Source: an uncultured Clostridia bacterium
Lineage (GTDB): Bacteria; Bacillota; Clostridia; Oscillospirales; Ruminococcaceae
Direction: 5' to 3'
Assembly: GCA_947627205.1 (NCBI GenBank)
Contig: CANQVE010000024.1
Location: 1-36,631 of the forward strand
DNA: 36,631 nt
Made by a program: the position numbers and the translations under genes. The notes under the pieces were generated by a model. The model worked only from the letters and a program-made list of their open reading frames with translations. It was not told the DNA's origin and ran no database searches. Every line of letters begins with the position of its first letter. Positions within the stretch are counted from its first letter, which is position 1. Below are positions 129-5,438 of this stretch, in pieces.

Positions 129-539
129 CTATCCCTTTTTCATTAAGTCTGCCACGCTTATATTATTGAAAAAATCTTCCGTTATCTCTTGGTATTTTTT
201 CCACATCGGGAGAGTACGGCACTCGCTTTCGCGTTCGCATTTCTCCGCATCGCAGTCAAGACACGCCACAGGCGCAAGACTGCCCTCTGTAAGCGTCAGA
301 ATGTCCCAGACTTTATAATCTTCGGGCGGACGGTTCAGCTTGTATCCTCCGCCTTTTCCGCTTGCGCCGTCAATGACCTTGTTCTTCATAAGCACAGGCA
401 TTATCTGCTCAAGATATTTAAGCGAGATACCTTGTCGCATAGCGATCTCTTTCATCGGAATATAGCTCCCGCTGTCATGCTCCGCAAGGTCAATAATTAC
501 CCTCAGCGCATAGCGCCCTCTGGTGGATACAAGTTTCAT
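129..539 (-). CDS. Rrf2-family transcriptional regulator (CymR/IscR-like)
   Basis: A 136-residue Rrf2-type winged-helix regulator. The N-terminus (MKLVSTRGRYALRVIIDLAE) and the recognition-helix region (GISLKYLEQIMPVLMKNKVI, then GKGGGYKL in the wing) are classic for the family. Residues around 93-107 hold four cysteines spaced C-x2-C-x4-C-x5-C; IscR uses three cysteines in this region for an Fe-S cluster, whereas B. subtilis-type CymR has none, so a metal or Fe-S cofactor is possible here. AAGGAG lies 7 bases before the ATG. It is the last gene of the metY-cysK-rrf2 operon, 15 bases after cysK, which fits a cysteine-metabolism repressor (CymR role) acting on the paired palindromes at the metY promoter. 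The link to those sites is inference. Confidence 0.88.
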   Translation of the reverse strand: MKLVSTRGRYALRVIIDLAEHDSGSYIPMKEIAMRQGISLKYLEQIMPVLMKNKVIDGASGKGGGYKLNRPPEDYKVWDILTLTEGSLAPVACLDCDAEKCERESECRTLPMWKKYQEITEDFFNNISVADLMKKG

Positions 540-554
540 CGTCTTTCTCCTTAT

Positions 555-1487
555 TTATTCGCTGAAAAGCTCGGTCGACAAATACCTGTCGCCCGTGTCG
601 GGAAGAATAACAACTATGTTCTTCCCCTCGCTTTCGGGGCGTTTAGCTATTTCAATTGCCGCCCACAGCGCCGCGCCCGAAGAAATTCCCACAAGAACTC
701 CCTCTTTTTTGCCTATGAGCCTGCCCGCTTCAAACGCGTCATTGTTTTCAACGGGGATTATCTCGTCATATATTTTCGTGTTCAATACCTCGGGAACAAA
801 CCCCGCTCCTATTCCTTGGATCTTGTGCGAGCCTGCAACGCCTGTCGATAATACTGCGCTCGACTTCGGCTCGATAGCGGCGATCTTTATGTCGGGGTTC
901 TTTGATTTAAGAAATTCGCCTGCTCCCGTAATCGTACCGCCCGTGCCTACGCCCGCAACAAAATAGTCAACTTTTCCGTCGGTGTCCTCCCATATTTCGG
1001 GGCCCGTCGTTTTTCTGTGCGCTTCGGGATTTGCGGGGTTTGTAAACTGCGAGGGGATAAATCCGCCCTTAATTTCTTTCGCAAGTTCCTCTGCCTTTGC
1101 TATTGCGCCTTTCATTCCCTTTGCGCCCTCTGTAAGAACAAGCTCCGCTCCGTATGCTTTCATAAGCTGTCTGCGCTCGACCGACATTGTTTCGGGCATA
1201 ACTATTATTATACGATAACCTCTTGCCGCCGCAACAGACGCAAGCCCTATGCCCGTGTTTCCGCTCGTAGGCTCGATTATTACCGAGTCTTTATTCAACA
1301 CGCCTCTTTTCTCGGCGTCGTCGAGCATTTCCTTTGCAACTCTGTCTTTTACGGAACCCGCAGGGTTGAAATATTCCAGCTTTGCAAGTATCTTTGCTTT
1401 CAGTCCGAGTTCCTTTTCAATGTGTACAAGTTCAAGAAGAGGCGTTCTGCCTACAAGCTGGTCTGCCGAAGTATAAATTTTAGCCAT
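555..1487 (-). CDS. cysK: Cysteine synthase A (O-acetylserine sulfhydrylase)
   Basis: A 310-residue PLP enzyme of the usual CysK length, which makes cysteine from O-acetylserine and sulfide. Visible signatures are the PLP-lysine segment [11 protein letters not shown], the substrate loop [11 protein letters not shown], the phosphate-binding glycine loop [13 protein letters not shown], and the C-terminal [11 protein letters not shown] typical of cysteine synthases. AGGAG precedes the ATG by 11 bases. It lies 31 bases after metY and 15 before rrf2, so the three genes are almost certainly one transcript. Nothing looks damaged. CysM or cystathionine beta-synthase-like enzymes share the fold, but the TSGNTG/GTGGT/DTGDRY combination favours CysK. 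Confidence 0.95.
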
Positions 1488-1518: not shown

Positions 1519-2820
1519 TTATTCAACGGCTTTAAACGCCGCATTAAGCGCCGCAATAAGGTCGTTTATGTTTTCCGTGCCTATAGAAAGCCTTATGGTG
1601 TTGGGCTTTATGCCTTGTTCGAGAAGCTCGCTCTCGGTGAGCTGAGAATGTGTGGTGCTTGCGGGGTGGATAACAAGGCTCTTTACGTCCGCAACATTTG
1701 CCAGAAGCGAGAAAATAGCGAGATTGTCTATAAACTTCTGCGCAGTCTCGGCGTCCCCCTTTATCTCAAAGGTGAATATCGAGCCGCCTCCGTTCGGGAA
1801 ATATTTCTTATACAGTCTGTGGCTTGGCTCGGTTTCGAGCGAGGGATGATGAACAGCCTCTACCTGCGGGTGTGAGTTTAAGTATTCGACAATTTTCAGC
1901 GCATTCTGAACATGCCTTTCAACTCTCAGCGAAAGCGTTTCAAGCCCTTGCAGGAATAAGAAAGCATGGAAAGGCGAAAGCGTAGCACCCGTATCTCTTA
2001 AAAGTATCGCTCTGATATACGTCACAAACGCAGCTTTTCCCGCCGCCTGTGAGAATGAAACTCCGTGATAAGAGGGGTTAGGCTCGGATATCCACGGATA
2101 CTTTCCCGATTTTTCCCAGTCAAATCCGCCGTCAACAATAACGCCGCCTATCGCCGTACCGTGACCGCCGATAAACTTTGTCGCCGAGTGTACGACAATA
2201 TCCGCGCCGTATTCAAGCGGTCTTACAAGATAGGGCGTAGCAAACGTCGAATCGACAACGAGCGGTATATCGTGCTTGTGAGCGACCTTTGCAACTTCTT
2301 CAATGTCGATTATGTTCGAGTTGGGGTTGCCGAGCGTTTCGATAAATATAGCCTTTGTGTTGTCTTGAATGGCATTTTCAAATGAATTTTCCTCTTCGGG
2401 ATCAACAAAAGTCGTCGTAATACCCGAAGAAAGCGGAAGAGTATGCGCGAGCAGATTATAAGTACCGCCGTAGATAGTCTTTGAAGCTACTATGTGTTCA
2501 CCACTTCTTGCGAGAGCGGAAATCGTATAGTTTATAGCCGCCGCGCCCGATGCAGTCGCAAGAGCGCCCGTGCCTCCCTCGAGAGCGGCGATTCTCTGCT
2601 CGAAGATATCCTGGGTGGGGTTTGTAAGTCTGCCGTAGATATTTCCCGCGTCGCGAAGCCCGAAGCGGTCTGCGGCGTGCTTGCTGTTATGGAATACGAA
2701 AGACGTGCTCGCGTATATGGGCACTGCGCGCGCGTCTGTCGCGGGATCTGCGTTTTCCTGTCCTATGTGGAGCTGTTTCGTTTCAAAGCTCCAATTCTGT
2801 GAATTTCTGATGTCTGACAT
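1519..2820 (-). CDS. metY: O-acetylhomoserine aminocarboxypropyltransferase/sulfhydrylase (MetY type)
   Basis: A 433-residue Cys/Met-metabolism PLP enzyme. The N-terminal SFETKQLHIGQENADPATDARAVPIY-type segment, YGRLTNPT, ALEGGTGALATASGAAA, and VVHSATKFIGGHGTAIGG (PLP lysine in SATKF) identify it; the length and the SATKFIGGHGT context are those of O-acetylhomoserine sulfhydrylase rather than the shorter cystathionine gamma-synthase. It should use sulfide or methanethiol to make homocysteine or methionine. First gene of the sulfur operon. Its leader is about 165 bases from the predicted start site and carries a short Cys-rich ORF; the ribosome site AGGAGG lies 10 bases before the ATG and can pair with a segment inside that ORF. 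In some Clostridia this enzyme is annotated as a bifunctional OAH/OAS sulfhydrylase. Confidence 0.93.
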   Translation of the reverse strand: MSDIRNSQNWSFETKQLHIGQENADPATDARAVPIYASTSFVFHNSKHAADRFGLRDAGNIYGRLTNPTQDIFEQRIAALEGGTGALATASGAAAINYTISALARSGEHIVASKTIYGGTYNLLAHTLPLSSGITTTFVDPEEENSFENAIQDNTKAIFIETLGNPNSNIIDIEEVAKVAHKHDIPLVVDSTFATPYLVRPLEYGADIVVHSATKFIGGHGTAIGGVIVDGGFDWEKSGKYPWISEPNPSYHGVSFSQAAGKAAFVTYIRAILLRDTGATLSPFHAFLFLQGLETLSLRVERHVQNALKIVEYLNSHPQVEAVHHPSLETEPSHRLYKKYFPNGGGSIFTFEIKGDAETAQKFIDNLAIFSLLANVADVKSLVIHPASTTHSQLTESELLEQGIKPNTIRLSIGTENINDLIAALNAAFKAVE

Positions 2821-2874
2821 AATAAAAGTTCCTCCTAAAATATTTAATTATTGTGTTTTTAAAAGCCGATAAGT

Positions 2875-2937
2875 TTAACGGCACATTCGGGATAGGGAAG
2901 AACAGATCATACATCGTCCATAATATCTGCGTTTCAT
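2875..2937 (-). CDS. Cys-rich leader peptide (20 aa) upstream of metY
   Basis: A short ORF in the metY leader: ATG at 2937, TAA at 2877-2875, 20 residues, with Cys at codons 9, 12 and 19 and a basic start (MKRRYYGRC). AAAGGG lies 9 bases upstream, a reasonable ribosome site; an in-frame ATG six codons further up lacks one. Three Cys in 20 codons, directly ahead of a cysteine/methionine operon, suggests a leader that senses Cys-tRNA. Codons 12-15 (2896-2903) are complementary to the metY ribosome site at 2828-2835 over 8 contiguous pairs including one G-U. No peptide function is known to me; translation is inferred. Confidence 0.5.
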   Translation of the reverse strand: MKRRYYGRCMICSSLSRMCR

Positions 2938-2968: not shown

Positions 2969-2985
2969 CCTACCAATCAAGTAGG
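2969..2985. promoter_or_regulatory. Operator-like palindrome 1 (CCTA-N9-TAGG) just downstream of metY start site
   Basis: CCTACCAATCAAGTAGG is an inverted repeat with arms CCTAC/GTAGG. It lies immediately after the predicted transcription start of the metY promoter. A second copy with the same 17-bp architecture is centred 41 bp away, about four helical turns, so both sites face the same side of the helix. The most likely ligand is the Rrf2 protein encoded at the end of this operon (inference). Confidence 0.6.
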
Positions 2986-2993
2986 TTGATTAT

Positions 2994-3022
2994 ATTATAA
3001 ACCCTATCGCCTACTTTGTCAA
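2994..3022 (-). promoter_or_regulatory. SigmaA-type promoter of the metY-cysK-rrf2 operon
   Basis: On the minus strand, TTGACA (3022-3017) and TATAAT (2999-2994) are both perfect consensus with exactly 17 bases between them. The predicted start is near 2987. The -35 box lies inside palindrome 2 and the start site abuts palindrome 1, the arrangement expected for repression by occlusion. Confidence 0.8.
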
Positions 3023-3026
3023 TAGG
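3010..3026. promoter_or_regulatory. Operator-like palindrome 2 (CCTA-N9-TAGG) covering the metY -35 box
   Basis: CCTACTTTGTCAATAGG has arms CCTA/TAGG around 9 bases, the same geometry as the copy at 2969-2985. The metY -35 hexamer (minus-strand TTGACA) lies within it, so bound protein would block RNA polymerase. Confidence 0.6.
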
Positions 3027-3082: not shown

Positions 3083-3111
3083 TTGACAAATGAGTAAAAA
3101 TATGTTACAAT
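3083..3111 (+). promoter_or_regulatory. SigmaA-type promoter of the amino-acid ABC transporter operon
   Basis: TTGACA (3083-3088), a 17-base spacer, then TACAAT (3106-3111). The predicted start is near 3118, giving a leader of about 57 bases to the ATG at 3175. It is divergent from the metY promoter across a 60-bp gap, which suggests joint control by sulfur status. Confidence 0.75.
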
Positions 3112-3174: not shown

Positions 3175-3975
3175 ATGAAAAAATTTCTGGCGGCATTTCT
3201 TGCCGCGGCAATGAGTGTGTTTGCTTTTGCAGGCTGCTCGGCAAGTGAAAAGACAGATTGGGAGTACATACAGGAAAAAGGAAAACTCACTGTCGGAATT
3301 ACCTATTTCGAGCCGATGAACTATTTCGACGAGAACAATGAGCTTACGGGTTTTGAAACGGAGTTTACAAAAGCTGTCTGCGAAAAGCTCGGAGTTGAGC
3401 CGGAGTTTCAGGAGATAGACTGGAACAACAAGGTTTTCGAGCTTGACTCAAAGACAATAGACGTTATCTGGAACGGTATGACCATAAACGACGAGCTTGC
3501 GGAAAAGATAATTTTCTCCACACCTTATATAAACAATAGACAGGTCGCTGTTATCAAAAAGGATAATGCTGACAAGTATAAGGATATCGCTTCTATGGAG
3601 GGCGCTTCCGTTACGGCTGAGATAGGCTCGGCAGGCGAAACAGCAGTTCAGAACGACAGCGTTTTGAGCAAGAATTACACGGGCTGTGCCGCACAGAAAG
3701 ACGTTCTTATAGAAATAAAGTCGGGAACTACAGAGATAGGCGTTATAGACTATGTTATGGCAAATGCTTCGGTAGGTGAGGGAACGGATTATTCCGACCT
3801 TATGATAGTAGAGAGCGTTGAGCTTACTCCCGAACAGTATGCGGTAGGTATCAGAAAGGACGATAAAGAGCTTCAGTCCAAGATAAACGCCGCTATACAG
3901 GAAATGGTAGACGACGGAAGCTTAAAGGCTCTGTGCGAAAAGTACGACCTGCTTGATGTGTATGCTTTCAAATAA
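3175..3975 (+). CDS. Amino-acid (probably cystine) ABC transporter substrate-binding lipoprotein
   Basis: A 266-residue periplasmic-binding-protein-type lipoprotein. Residues 1-21 form a signal peptide (MKKFLAAFLAAAMSVFAFAGC) with lipobox FAGC, so it is anchored outside the membrane by Cys20. The mature part is an SBP family 3 domain: KLTVGITYFEPMNYFDENNELTGFETEFTKAV is the typical first strand and ligand loop, and DVIWNGMTINDELAEKIIFSTPY the second. AAGGAGC precedes the ATG. First gene of a three-gene importer divergent from the sulfur operon, which is the main reason to propose cystine, cysteine or a related thiol amino acid as ligand; the sequence alone shows only a polar amino-acid importer. 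Confidence 0.9.
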   Translation: MKKFLAAFLAAAMSVFAFAGCSASEKTDWEYIQEKGKLTVGITYFEPMNYFDENNELTGFETEFTKAVCEKLGVEPEFQEIDWNNKVFELDSKTIDVIWNGMTINDELAEKIIFSTPYINNRQVAVIKKDNADKYKDIASMEGASVTAEIGSAGETAVQNDSVLSKNYTGCAAQKDVLIEIKSGTTEIGVIDYVMANASVGEGTDYSDLMIVESVELTPEQYAVGIRKDDKELQSKINAAIQEMVDDGSLKALCEKYDLLDVYAFK

Positions 3976-3993
3976 TTAAAACAAGGTGAAATT

Positions 3994-4641
3994 ATGTCGT
4001 TTCTTGAAGTAACAGCCCAGCTCGCAAACGGATTTTTAACGACGCTCTTAATATTCGGAGTGACGCTTGTGTGTGCGCTTCCGCTGGGGCTTCTGATAAA
4101 CTTTGGCTCAATGTCGAAGATACCGCCGATAAAGTGGATAATGAGAACATTTATCTGGATAATACGCGGAACACCGCTTATGCTTCAGATAATAATCGTG
4201 TTCTACGGTCCGGGGCTTTTGTTCGGCTGGAGCGCTCTGCCTAGGCTTATGGCGGTGCTTATTGCGTTTGTGATAAACTATGCGTGCTATTTTTCGGAGA
4301 TCTACCGCGGGGGAATTGAAAGTATTCCCAAAGGACAGTATGAAGCGGGGCAGGTCCTCGGAATGACGAAAAGTCAGATCTTTTTCAAGATAGTGCTTTT
4401 CCAGGTAATAAAGCGCATTGTTCCGCCTATGGGAAACGAGATAATAACGCTTGTAAAGGATACTTCTCTTGCGAGAGTAATTATGGTGGTAGAGCTTGTC
4501 CAGGCGGCACAGCAAATAGTCGCGCAAAAAGCATTGCTTTGGCCGATGTTCTATATCGGAGCATTCTACCTGCTGTTTTCGGGATTGCTTACGGTCGTTC
4601 TCAACCGCGTTGAGAAAAAGCTGAATTATTACAGCGGCTGA
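3994..4641 (+). CDS. Amino-acid ABC transporter permease (HisM/GlnP family)
   Basis: A 215-residue polar-amino-acid permease of normal length with about five membrane segments. The conserved cytoplasmic loop that docks the ATPase is visible: GQYEAGQVLGMTKSQIFFKIVLFQ. The RGTPLMLQIIIVFYG segment after the second membrane helix is also characteristic. It follows the binding protein by 18 bases and precedes the ATPase by 17, so all three form one operon and one inner-membrane complex. Only one permease gene is present, so it probably acts as a homodimer. Confidence 0.93.
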   Translation: MSFLEVTAQLANGFLTTLLIFGVTLVCALPLGLLINFGSMSKIPPIKWIMRTFIWIIRGTPLMLQIIIVFYGPGLLFGWSALPRLMAVLIAFVINYACYFSEIYRGGIESIPKGQYEAGQVLGMTKSQIFFKIVLFQVIKRIVPPMGNEIITLVKDTSLARVIMVVELVQAAQQIVAQKALLWPMFYIGAFYLLFSGLLTVVLNRVEKKLNYYSG

Positions 4642-4658
4642 GAGAATGTGAGGGAAGT

Positions 4659-5438
4659 ATGGCTTTTCTTGAAGTAAAAGGGATACATAAAAATTTCGGC
4701 AAGACCGAGGTCTTAAAAGGCATAGATTTTACTATGGAACAAGGCGAGGTGCTTGCAATAATAGGTTCTTCGGGAAGCGGAAAGACAACGCTTCTTAGGT
4801 GTTTAAACTTTCTTGAGCGTGCCGATAAGGGCGTTTTTATGCTGAACGGCAAGGAATTTTTCAATGCCGAAAAGAACTATAAGGACAGCGAGATACGCGA
4901 AAAGCATAAACATCTCGGTCTTGTTTTCCAGCAGTTCAATCTTTTCCCGCAGTATACCGTGCTTAAAAATGTTTCACTTGCGGTGGAGCTGACAGTCAAT
5001 AAAAAACTTCCGAAAGACGAGAAGAAAAAGCTGTTCGCTCAAATTAACGAAAATTCAAAGGCAATTCTCGAAAGCGTGGGGCTGGGCGATAAAATAAACG
5101 CTTATCCCTGTAATCTTTCGGGCGGTCAGCAGCAGCGAGTTGCGATAGCTAGGGCATTAGCATTAAGCCCCGATATATTGTGCTTTGACGAACCGACGTC
5201 CGCGCTCGATCCGGAGCTTACGGGAGAGGTGCTTAGGGTTATCCGCGAGCTTAAAAATTCAATGAGGACAATGATAGTCGTTACCCACGAGATGAATTTT
5301 GCAAGAGGAGTTGCGGATAAGGTGATATTTATGGCAGAGGGCATTATCGAAGAAGCAGGCGATCCCGAACAGGTGTTCGGAAATCCGAAGAGCGAAAGAA
5401 CAAAGGCGTTTTTGGAGAAGTCGTTGGAAAATATATGA
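4659..5438 (+). CDS. Amino-acid ABC transporter ATP-binding protein
   Basis: A 259-residue GlnQ/TcyC-type ATPase. Walker A is GSSGSGKTTLL (about residue 37), the Q-loop lies in LGLVFQQFNLFPQYTVL, the ABC signature is LSGGQQQRVAIARALA, Walker B is ILCFDEPTSALDP, and the switch histidine is in VVTHEMNFA. It powers the permease encoded just upstream. The stop is followed two bases later by a 19-bp perfect hairpin that probably ends the operon. Confidence 0.95.
   Translation: MAFLEVKGIHKNFGKTEVLKGIDFTMEQGEVLAIIGSSGSGKTTLLRCLNFLERADKGVFMLNGKEFFNAEKNYKDSEIREKHKHLGLVFQQFNLFPQYTVLKNVSLAVELTVNKKLPKDEKKKLFAQINENSKAILESVGLGDKINAYPCNLSGGQQQRVAIARALALSPDILCFDEPTSALDPELTGEVLRVIRELKNSMRTMIVVTHEMNFARGVADKVIFMAEGIIEEAGDPEQVFGNPKSERTKAFLEKSLENI

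Follow-up and report, generated by a model that had tools for sequence, protein, structure and literature searches.

The window, that is, the whole stretch of 36,631 nucleotides from an uncultured Clostridia bacterium that was analysed here, carries on its minus strand, in this order, a consensus promoter, a 20-codon open reading frame (ORF; 2937-2875) and the gene metY (2820-1519), which on sequence grounds is proposed to be under the control of this leader (Table 1). An earlier note had described a 20-residue peptide encoded by this ORF ahead of metY, its codons 9, 12 and 19 specifying Cys, and this was confirmed. A further in-frame ATG occurs upstream at position 2955; since it is missing in the close relative L004, 2937 is regarded as the conserved start. 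The pair CGA-AUG (Arg17-Met18, 2889-2884) stands two codons before the TAA stop codon, and this unit is common to the whole family of leaders treated below. Across six genes of the window, CGA accounts for only 2 of 51 Arg codons.

Table 1. Features of the metY locus in the window (positions of the forward strand).
Feature	Position	Strand	Remarks
Rrf2-family regulator	129..539	-	TIGR00738 above cut-off; IscR and CymR models matched below their cut-offs
cysK, cysteine synthase A	555..1487	-	adjoins metY downstream; TIGR01139 above cut-off
metY, O-acetylhomoserine aminocarboxypropyltransferase/cysteine synthase	1519..2820	-	TIGR01326, 610 bits (cut-off 495)
metY ribosome site AGGAGGAAC	2828..2836	-	2835-2828 (GGAGGAAC) can pair with 2903-2896
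CUUUUA	2860..2865	-	alternative partner of the ribosome site in the folding model when the arm is masked
Leader ORF MKRRYYGRCMICSSLSRMCR	2875..2937	-	20 codons and TAA; Cys at codons 9, 12 and 19
CGA17-AUG18-UGC19 (Arg-Met-Cys)	2881..2889	-	window clade: CGA-AUG 11/11, UGY 10/11
Anti-ribosome-site arm GUUCUUCC	2896..2903	-	2903-2896 read GTTCTTCC; inside codons 12-14
CGA8-UGU9 (Arg-Cys)	2911..2916	-	kept in 11/11 window-clade leaders
Inverted repeat CCTAC-N7-GTAGG (CCTACTTGATTGGTAGG)	2969..2985	-	near the expected transcription start
Promoter-like TTGACA-17-TATAAT	2994..3022	-	12/12 consensus positions; TTGACA from 3022, TATAAT ending at 2994
Second inverted repeat CCTATTGACAAAGTAGG	3010..3026	-	overlaps the -35 box
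Divergent promoter-like site	3083..3111	+	
Amino-acid ABC transporter	3175..5438	+	three genes

Both inverted repeats (3026-3010 and 2985-2969) resemble operators for the Rrf2 regulator encoded at 129-539, and a loose pattern for such repeats matched upstream of 30 of the 109 metY starts read in this study. The components of the divergently oriented ABC transporter gave their best or second-best score with cystine transporter models, below the cut-offs of these models. Transcription of metY is probably set separately, by a repressor of the Rrf2 type acting at the two inverted repeats. That control of this ordinary kind is all that acts on metY, the ORF and its pairing being incidental, is very improbable: the consensus promoter flanked by inverted repeats, the Rrf2 gene downstream and one related locus (L012) that manages without a leader would suit such a reading, and the signature of in-frame CGA-AUG and CGA-UGU that marks the family contradicts it. 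A consensus scan of the minus strand found no terminator-like site between the leader and metY, which fits translational control.

Relatives of the window leader were sought in 43 genomes of the genus, of which 34 gave a match, in 35 places, and 30 of these were turned into loci. Thirteen loci possess a metY gene of the window type, and in 11 of them there is a leader whose last residues are Arg-Met-Cys(-x) or Arg-Met. The other two go against a conserved leader and pairing in this clade, L012 lacking a leader altogether and L008 carrying one of another kind that shows no pairing (P = 0.49). The earlier note had named Cys codons conserved across related leaders as a check; Cys9 was kept in 11/11 leaders, as CGA-UGU, and Cys19 in 10/11, its position being a stop codon in L011, and this did not extend to Cys12, which is Gly or Ile in several relatives. 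Sixteen codons precede CGA17 in the window leader and 14 to 23 precede the corresponding CGA in the other loci of the clade. Elsewhere in the genus, metY genes of the MANKYRFE type (L015, L016, L018, L019, L022 and L025-L030) lack a leader, and the promoter of these loci is by eye similar to that of the window type. L014 (leader MKYHSGFIMCGGQP) and L017 (leader MKYYSGFIMCG) contain Met-Cys without a CGA codon and possibly represent a third leader type. Within the window's own genome, the genus pattern matched in three places, only one of which, the metY leader, was recognised as a leader; the other two were judged from the matched letters alone, and the pattern would miss other leader types. 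A PF03180 search found no MetQ gene in this genome.

The leader was proposed in the earlier note to hide the metY ribosome site, with bases 2903-2896 pairing with 2835-2828. These 8 contiguous pairs, including one G-U, are indeed present, and the arm had to be moved from codons 12-15 to codons 12-14; it ends 6 nt before CGA17 and thus lies 7-14 nt upstream of it. The duplex energy is -12.0 kcal/mol (P = 0.039 against 1000 synonymous recodings) and the longest helix comprises 8 pairs (P = 0.076). Since these values are only mildly unusual (P 0.04-0.08), the pairing of the window alone is weak evidence. In the clade, the pairing was kept in 11 leaders although its letters vary, with compensating changes (duplex-energy P 0.002-0.069 against synonymous recodings).

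In ten distinct rows of the clade, 93% of the helix cells were paired in comparison to 83.8% after shuffling, and the covariation score was 0.353 in comparison to 0.196; neither value was reached by any of 500 shuffles, and slid registers of the helix gave covariation scores of 0.056-0.151. The rows were anchored by motifs of the arm itself, which were picked after the pairing had been seen, and this favours a positive result. Because anchoring on the arm biases toward pairing, the two outer pairs are the fairer evidence; they occur as G-C, G-U, U-A and A-U among the loci, beside some unpaired cells. Another pair is G-C in six loci and U-A in five. Three pairs change on both sides, a count that 65 of 500 shuffles reached and that is therefore unremarkable by itself. 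Loci falling below 5% numbered 3/11 in the clade against a shuffled arm and 0/11 against shuffled intergenic sequence. The comparison supports the view that the metY ribosome site would pair with leader codons, with compensating changes, which is a feature expected of an ermC-type attenuator.

A stall would have to cover this arm. The conserved putative stall codons adjoin it, CGA-AUG lying next to the arm in 11/11 leaders of the clade. Eight loci have an arm that begins 15 nt before CGA, whereas the distance is 18 nt in L009 and L013 and 24 nt in L010; at 18-24 nt, a ribosome on CGA would cover the arm only in part or not at all. Stalling was modelled as a ribosome footprint of 29 nt centred on CGA. 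Upon masking, the ribosome site was predicted to become clearly more accessible in L005, L007 and L013 and somewhat more accessible in L006, L009 and L011; no release was predicted in L001 (the metY locus of the window), L002, L003, L004 and L010. When the arm of the window was masked, the ribosome site was predicted to pair anew with CUUUUA, its unpaired fraction falling from 0.18 to 0.01; wherever the stall was placed between codons 2 and 20, this fraction did not exceed 0.28 in the model. This predicted re-pairing is the chief weakness of the attenuator reading at the window locus.

The family extends far beyond the genus. In the family-level group, which comprised 297 genomes, a MetY search at E 1e-150 gave a match in 126; 89 of the 128 matched places were read, and L065, L073, L080, L081 and L112 gave no readable metY start. 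Together with the genus set and after removal of duplicates (L031-L035 repeat genus loci), 109 metY starts were read. CGAATG occurred 30-200 nt upstream of 74 of them, in comparison to about 4-5 expected by base counting, and was missing upstream of 35; in the metY genes of Lachnospira eligens and Monoglobus it was not found within 300 nt upstream. After exclusion of five doubtful rows (L021, L086, L097, L098 and L108), 68 distinct leaders contained CGAATG in frame as Arg(CGA)-Met within a short ORF. That CGAATG forms a fixed hairpin with a CATTCG located downstream was considered and rejected, as 4 of 74 loci showed it (0.6 expected after shuffling), which is above chance and not general.

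A large subclass shares the peptide M-x6-[LV][LV]R-x-N[FYW]R[FN]G-RM (M-x6-LLRxNFRFGRM) and is found in Clostridia ahead of metY, metQ, metN or the gene of an Rrf2 regulator. When its core was searched with a degenerate pattern, 37 places in 34 of the 297 genomes were obtained, and the reversed control gave one. Scanning of named genomes yielded at least 120 stretches, of which 119 held the pattern (none in the stored stretch of L249). Among the matches listed, 80 stretches were titled; four of them were from outside the Clostridia (Mariniphaga, Bifidobacterium, Chrysosporum and Exiguobacterium) and the remaining ones were mostly clostridial genome bins. Subdoligranulum variabile also carries such a leader (MSRDTIQQRLCRWRNSRMCMGG). 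The named and the unnamed sets partly overlap, L151 and L268, which are identical in leader and metN, possibly stem from one organism, and relatedness among the genomes inflates all counts given here.

A mechanical test was passed by 110 named leaders among the matches listed, although L234 and L302, and perhaps also L288, appear to be chance matches. Judged by motif, the genes downstream of these 110 were metY (84), metQ (10) and metN (1); profiles added MetQ for L206 and L258 and an amino-acid ABC permease for L194, three leaders had no assigned gene and nine had no gene by the rule used. Outside these 110, the leader also lies before metQ, after what by eye appears to be the end of metI (e.g. 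L153, L155, L172, L174 and L175), and in L169 it precedes a regulator similar, as judged by eye, to the Rrf2 protein of the window. Sequence comparison shows that metY, metQ or metN is preceded by a short ORF, in most cases with a putative ribosome site that can be recognised. The window leader has the features that define the family, namely a short ORF, an in-frame CGA-AUG near the stop codon and a sulfur-amino-acid gene (metY) downstream. It reads ICSSLS before Arg-Met and, without an NFRFG-type peptide, falls in the other class.

In several predicted folds of the NFRFG class, the codons AAUUUCCGUUUCGG are paired with CGAAAGGAAAU, located around the ribosome site that follows. Duplexes of a leader's own arms were more stable than those of swapped arms (-11.7 in comparison to -10.1 kcal/mol, z -8.0, n = 112). 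With arms of less than 55% identity (n = 44), 4 of 10,000 shuffles reached the real value, and 204 did so for the ribosome-site side alone. In the other class, which includes the window, 2 of 10,000 shuffles reached it for the ribosome-site side at less than 65% identity (n = 40) and 29 for the whole arm; upstream of the ribosome-site side the test was not clearly passed (473 of 10,000). Loci below 5% amounted to 34/120 (NFRFG) and 5/49 (other class) against shuffled intergenic sequence, and to 49/120 and 10/49 against a shuffled arm. Position-by-position pairing of the NFRFG class in a fixed register left most columns at expectation. In the stall model, the mean unpaired fraction of the ribosome site in this class was predicted to rise from 0.34 to 0.53, with a gain of more than 0.2 in 47 of 111 leaders and a loss in 4; in the other class 9 of 38 were predicted to gain and 2 to lose. 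Comparison shows that the codons upstream of CGA-AUG can form pairs with the ribosome site belonging to the gene that follows.

It is also conceivable that translation of the leader affects the transcript rather than initiation at metY, a stalled ribosome obstructing Rho or else an RNase, as is the case at tna. The lack of a terminator-like site between leader and metY is shared with mycobacterial cysteine leaders, for which the available part of one article suggests an involvement of Rho (PMC1262725). This is nevertheless improbable, for the leader codons covary with the ribosome site, and leaders also occur directly before metQ, following the apparent end of metI.

As the leaders were mostly found via CGAATG, a test that does not select for CGA is of importance. 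When the 109 upstream regions were searched with the peptide motif and the last two residues were left free, 28 matches were obtained, 26 of them Asn-initial; the other two (L045 and L119) are not leaders and were discarded. All 26 Asn-initial matches end in CGA ATG, and their inner Arg is encoded by CGA in just 1 of 25 cases. Codons were counted in 186 distinct leaders, from which L200, L208, L209, L214, L231, L234, L253, L271, L288, L302, L304 and L305 had been excluded as chance matches, cut contigs or unclear genes. CGA preceded Met in 192 of 199 cases, which is selected by construction; Arg-Cys pairs, for which no selection was made, used CGA in 55 of 69 cases. The Cys codon following CGA was UGU in 55/55 cases, in comparison to a UGC:UGU ratio of 59:59 after AUG, and CGATGT inside leader ORFs was in frame in 55/55. 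In 824 control ORFs, which were called mechanically and some of which are spurious, CGA made up 7.6% of all Arg codons, 10.3% before Met and 9.9% before Cys, and was followed by UGC 20 times and by UGU 8 times. These comparisons show that CGA has been selected specifically ahead of Met (AUG) and Cys (UGU) codons.

The peptide, too, is under selection in the NFRFG subclass, since the aromatic position was Phe, Tyr or Trp in 25 of the 26 Asn-initial leaders, with synonymous changes at other codons. A serious rival for this class is that the nascent peptide itself, NFRFGRM or weaker variants such as that of the window, acts from within the exit tunnel to arrest the ribosome, as TnaC or SpeFL do, upon presence or lack of a small molecule (methionine, S-adenosylmethionine (SAM), O-acetyl-serine or -homoserine), while CGA and the following codon only tune stalling. 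The conserved aromatic residue with its differing codons agrees with this, as do the constant spacing of 16 codons before CGA in 100 of the 110 accepted named leaders among the matches listed and the 32 of these 110 that end directly after Met, as termination-arrest peptides can. For the family as a whole such an arrest is unlikely, because 49 leaders, including that of the window, keep CGA-AUG without the peptide motif, and because it predicts neither CGA over other Arg codons nor UGU over UGC.

The tails of the leaders bear on which amino acid is sensed. Leaders end right after Arg-Met in 31 of 106 named cases among the matches listed and in 9 of the 68 distinct leaders of the metY set. The stop codon behind Arg-Met, found in 32 of 110 named leaders among the matches listed, is UGA in 28 and UAA in 4. 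This preference could reflect a one-step change from UGY or a constraint at the level of the bases. In the named leaders with this ending (among L186-L305), UGA at this place keeps CGAAUGUG intact. Beyond the first tail residue, Cys makes up 15% of the residues (84/561 named, 40/271 metY set), in comparison to 0.4% (named) and 3.2% (metY set) of the head residues before Arg-Met, so that Cys codons are favoured. They are no general sensor, as leaders ending at Arg-Met exist and nearly identical leaders differ only in their tail, stopping at Arg-Met or continuing to Cys (L293 in comparison to L201 and L259). Cys codons as the conserved element were dropped once leaders with a stop codon after Arg-Met appeared.

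For the same reasons, the proposal of the earlier note that a ribosome stalls at Cys9 or Cys12 when cysteine alone is scarce is rather improbable. Cys9 as part of CGA-UGU in 11/11 leaders of the clade, the enrichment of Cys in the tails and the position of cysK directly after metY would agree with it. Cys12 is unconserved, though, the shared codon is AUG, many relatives stop at Arg-Met with nearly identical leaders doing with or without Cys, and metQ and metN, genes of methionine transport, stand behind the same leader; by geometry, a ribosome at Cys9 would reach just the edge of the arm. What stands of that ermC-style proposal is its translational layout, with leader codons that would hide the ribosome site by pairing and no terminator-like site in the consensus scan; its tuning to cysteine alone is not supported.

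We consider it somewhat more probable than a coin toss (roughly 0.53) that the window leader is a translational attenuator of sulfur-amino-acid genes and one member of a large clostridial family. Stalling at CGA-AUG or CGA-UGU under shortage of methionine or cysteine is the favoured reading of the sequence pattern. CGA would be read slowly, so that a ribosome with CGA in the P site may have to wait for Met-tRNA or Cys-tRNA. If either were short, the ribosome would stay on the leader and cover the anti-ribosome-site arm, and the metY ribosome site would be freed. With both tRNAs plentiful, the leader would be finished, the helix would form again and translation of metY would drop. In a Salmonella his-leader assay, according to the available text, stalling at CGA was high and its decoding took longer than that of CGU and CGC (PMC4046918). 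CGA is read by an inosine tRNA in most bacteria, as stated in the accessible parts of two articles (PMC3711424, PMC10454642). The draft assembly of the window contains 34 tRNA matches; in the 30 loci read by ARAGORN, the Arg anticodons were TCT, CCG and CCT only.

Such waiting, at the Met or Cys codon that follows CGA, is the simplest reading that accounts for CGA, AUG, UGU and the target genes together. Conservation of the NFRFG peptide counts against it, as hunger for a codon alone would not seem to require this. Tentatively, and with less confidence than in the attenuator as such, the leader family may use a codon-pair sensor by which a lack of either sulfur amino acid, methionine or cysteine, is registered: a poorly read CGA in the P site would sensitise the ribosome to the supply of the next tRNA, CGA being fixed only before AUG and before UGU, the weaker of the Cys codons, and a synonymous codon choice instead of a codon run would serve as the sensor.

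Rfam models, including T-box and SAM riboswitches, gave no match in the window at the gathering score, and two matches over 16 loci, neither covering a leader. In L222, the metY leader is preceded on the same strand, at a distance of about 200 bases, by a Gut-1 RNA (RF01706; 5757-5832, minus strand). Six leader peptides matched no family of the Pfam and NCBIfam profiles. Searches of an open-access library showed no such leader.

In classical attenuators the amino acid is sensed by a run of its own codons. In attenuators of the ermC type a ribosome stalled on the leader is thought to release the next ribosome site, whereas TnaC and SpeFL are metabolite-sensing arrest peptides; cysteine leader ORFs of mycobacteria were reportedly treated by Canestrari in 2020. 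As in ermC, codons of the leader ORF help to hide the next ribosome site here; unlike there, the genes are metabolic, no antibiotic is involved and the putative stall signature consists of CGA ahead of a Met or Cys codon. With TnaC and SpeFL the leaders share a conserved C-terminal peptide, often with a stop codon directly after it, but here codon identity is conserved besides the peptide. The closest in idea, as far as the available portions of the source go, are the LEU element and the cysteine leaders of Actinobacteria (PMC1262725). In the LEU element of actinobacterial leuA, amino-acid codons of the leader likewise pair with the ribosome site of a biosynthetic gene (available part of PMC1262725); it has a run of Leu codons and a pseudoknot, whereas the present family has no codon run, belongs to another phylum and precedes sulfur genes. 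In mycobacteria, a short ORF with Cys codons before sulfur genes has likewise been proposed to respond to cysteine (PMC1262725, PMC9094748; both as far as accessible). Those leaders have runs of Cys codons near the stop codon, while here Cys is optional, CGA-AUG is shared and a putative helix would mask the ribosome site; the window leader has three separate Cys codons and no run near its stop, and some leaders of the family have no Cys. In Xanthomonas, a methionine-controlled 5' leader of other genes acts mainly on translation; the available part of that text makes no use of the term 'leader peptide' (PMC6230763).

In many clostridial genome bins this leader family precedes metY, genes of methionine transport and the gene of a regulator. 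If the favoured reading is true, a single Met or Cys codon behind a rare Arg codon, beside an arm of leader codons that pairs with the ribosome site, would replace the codon run as the sensor, and the family makes it directly testable whether CGA in the P site turns the next codon into a sensor of tRNA charging.
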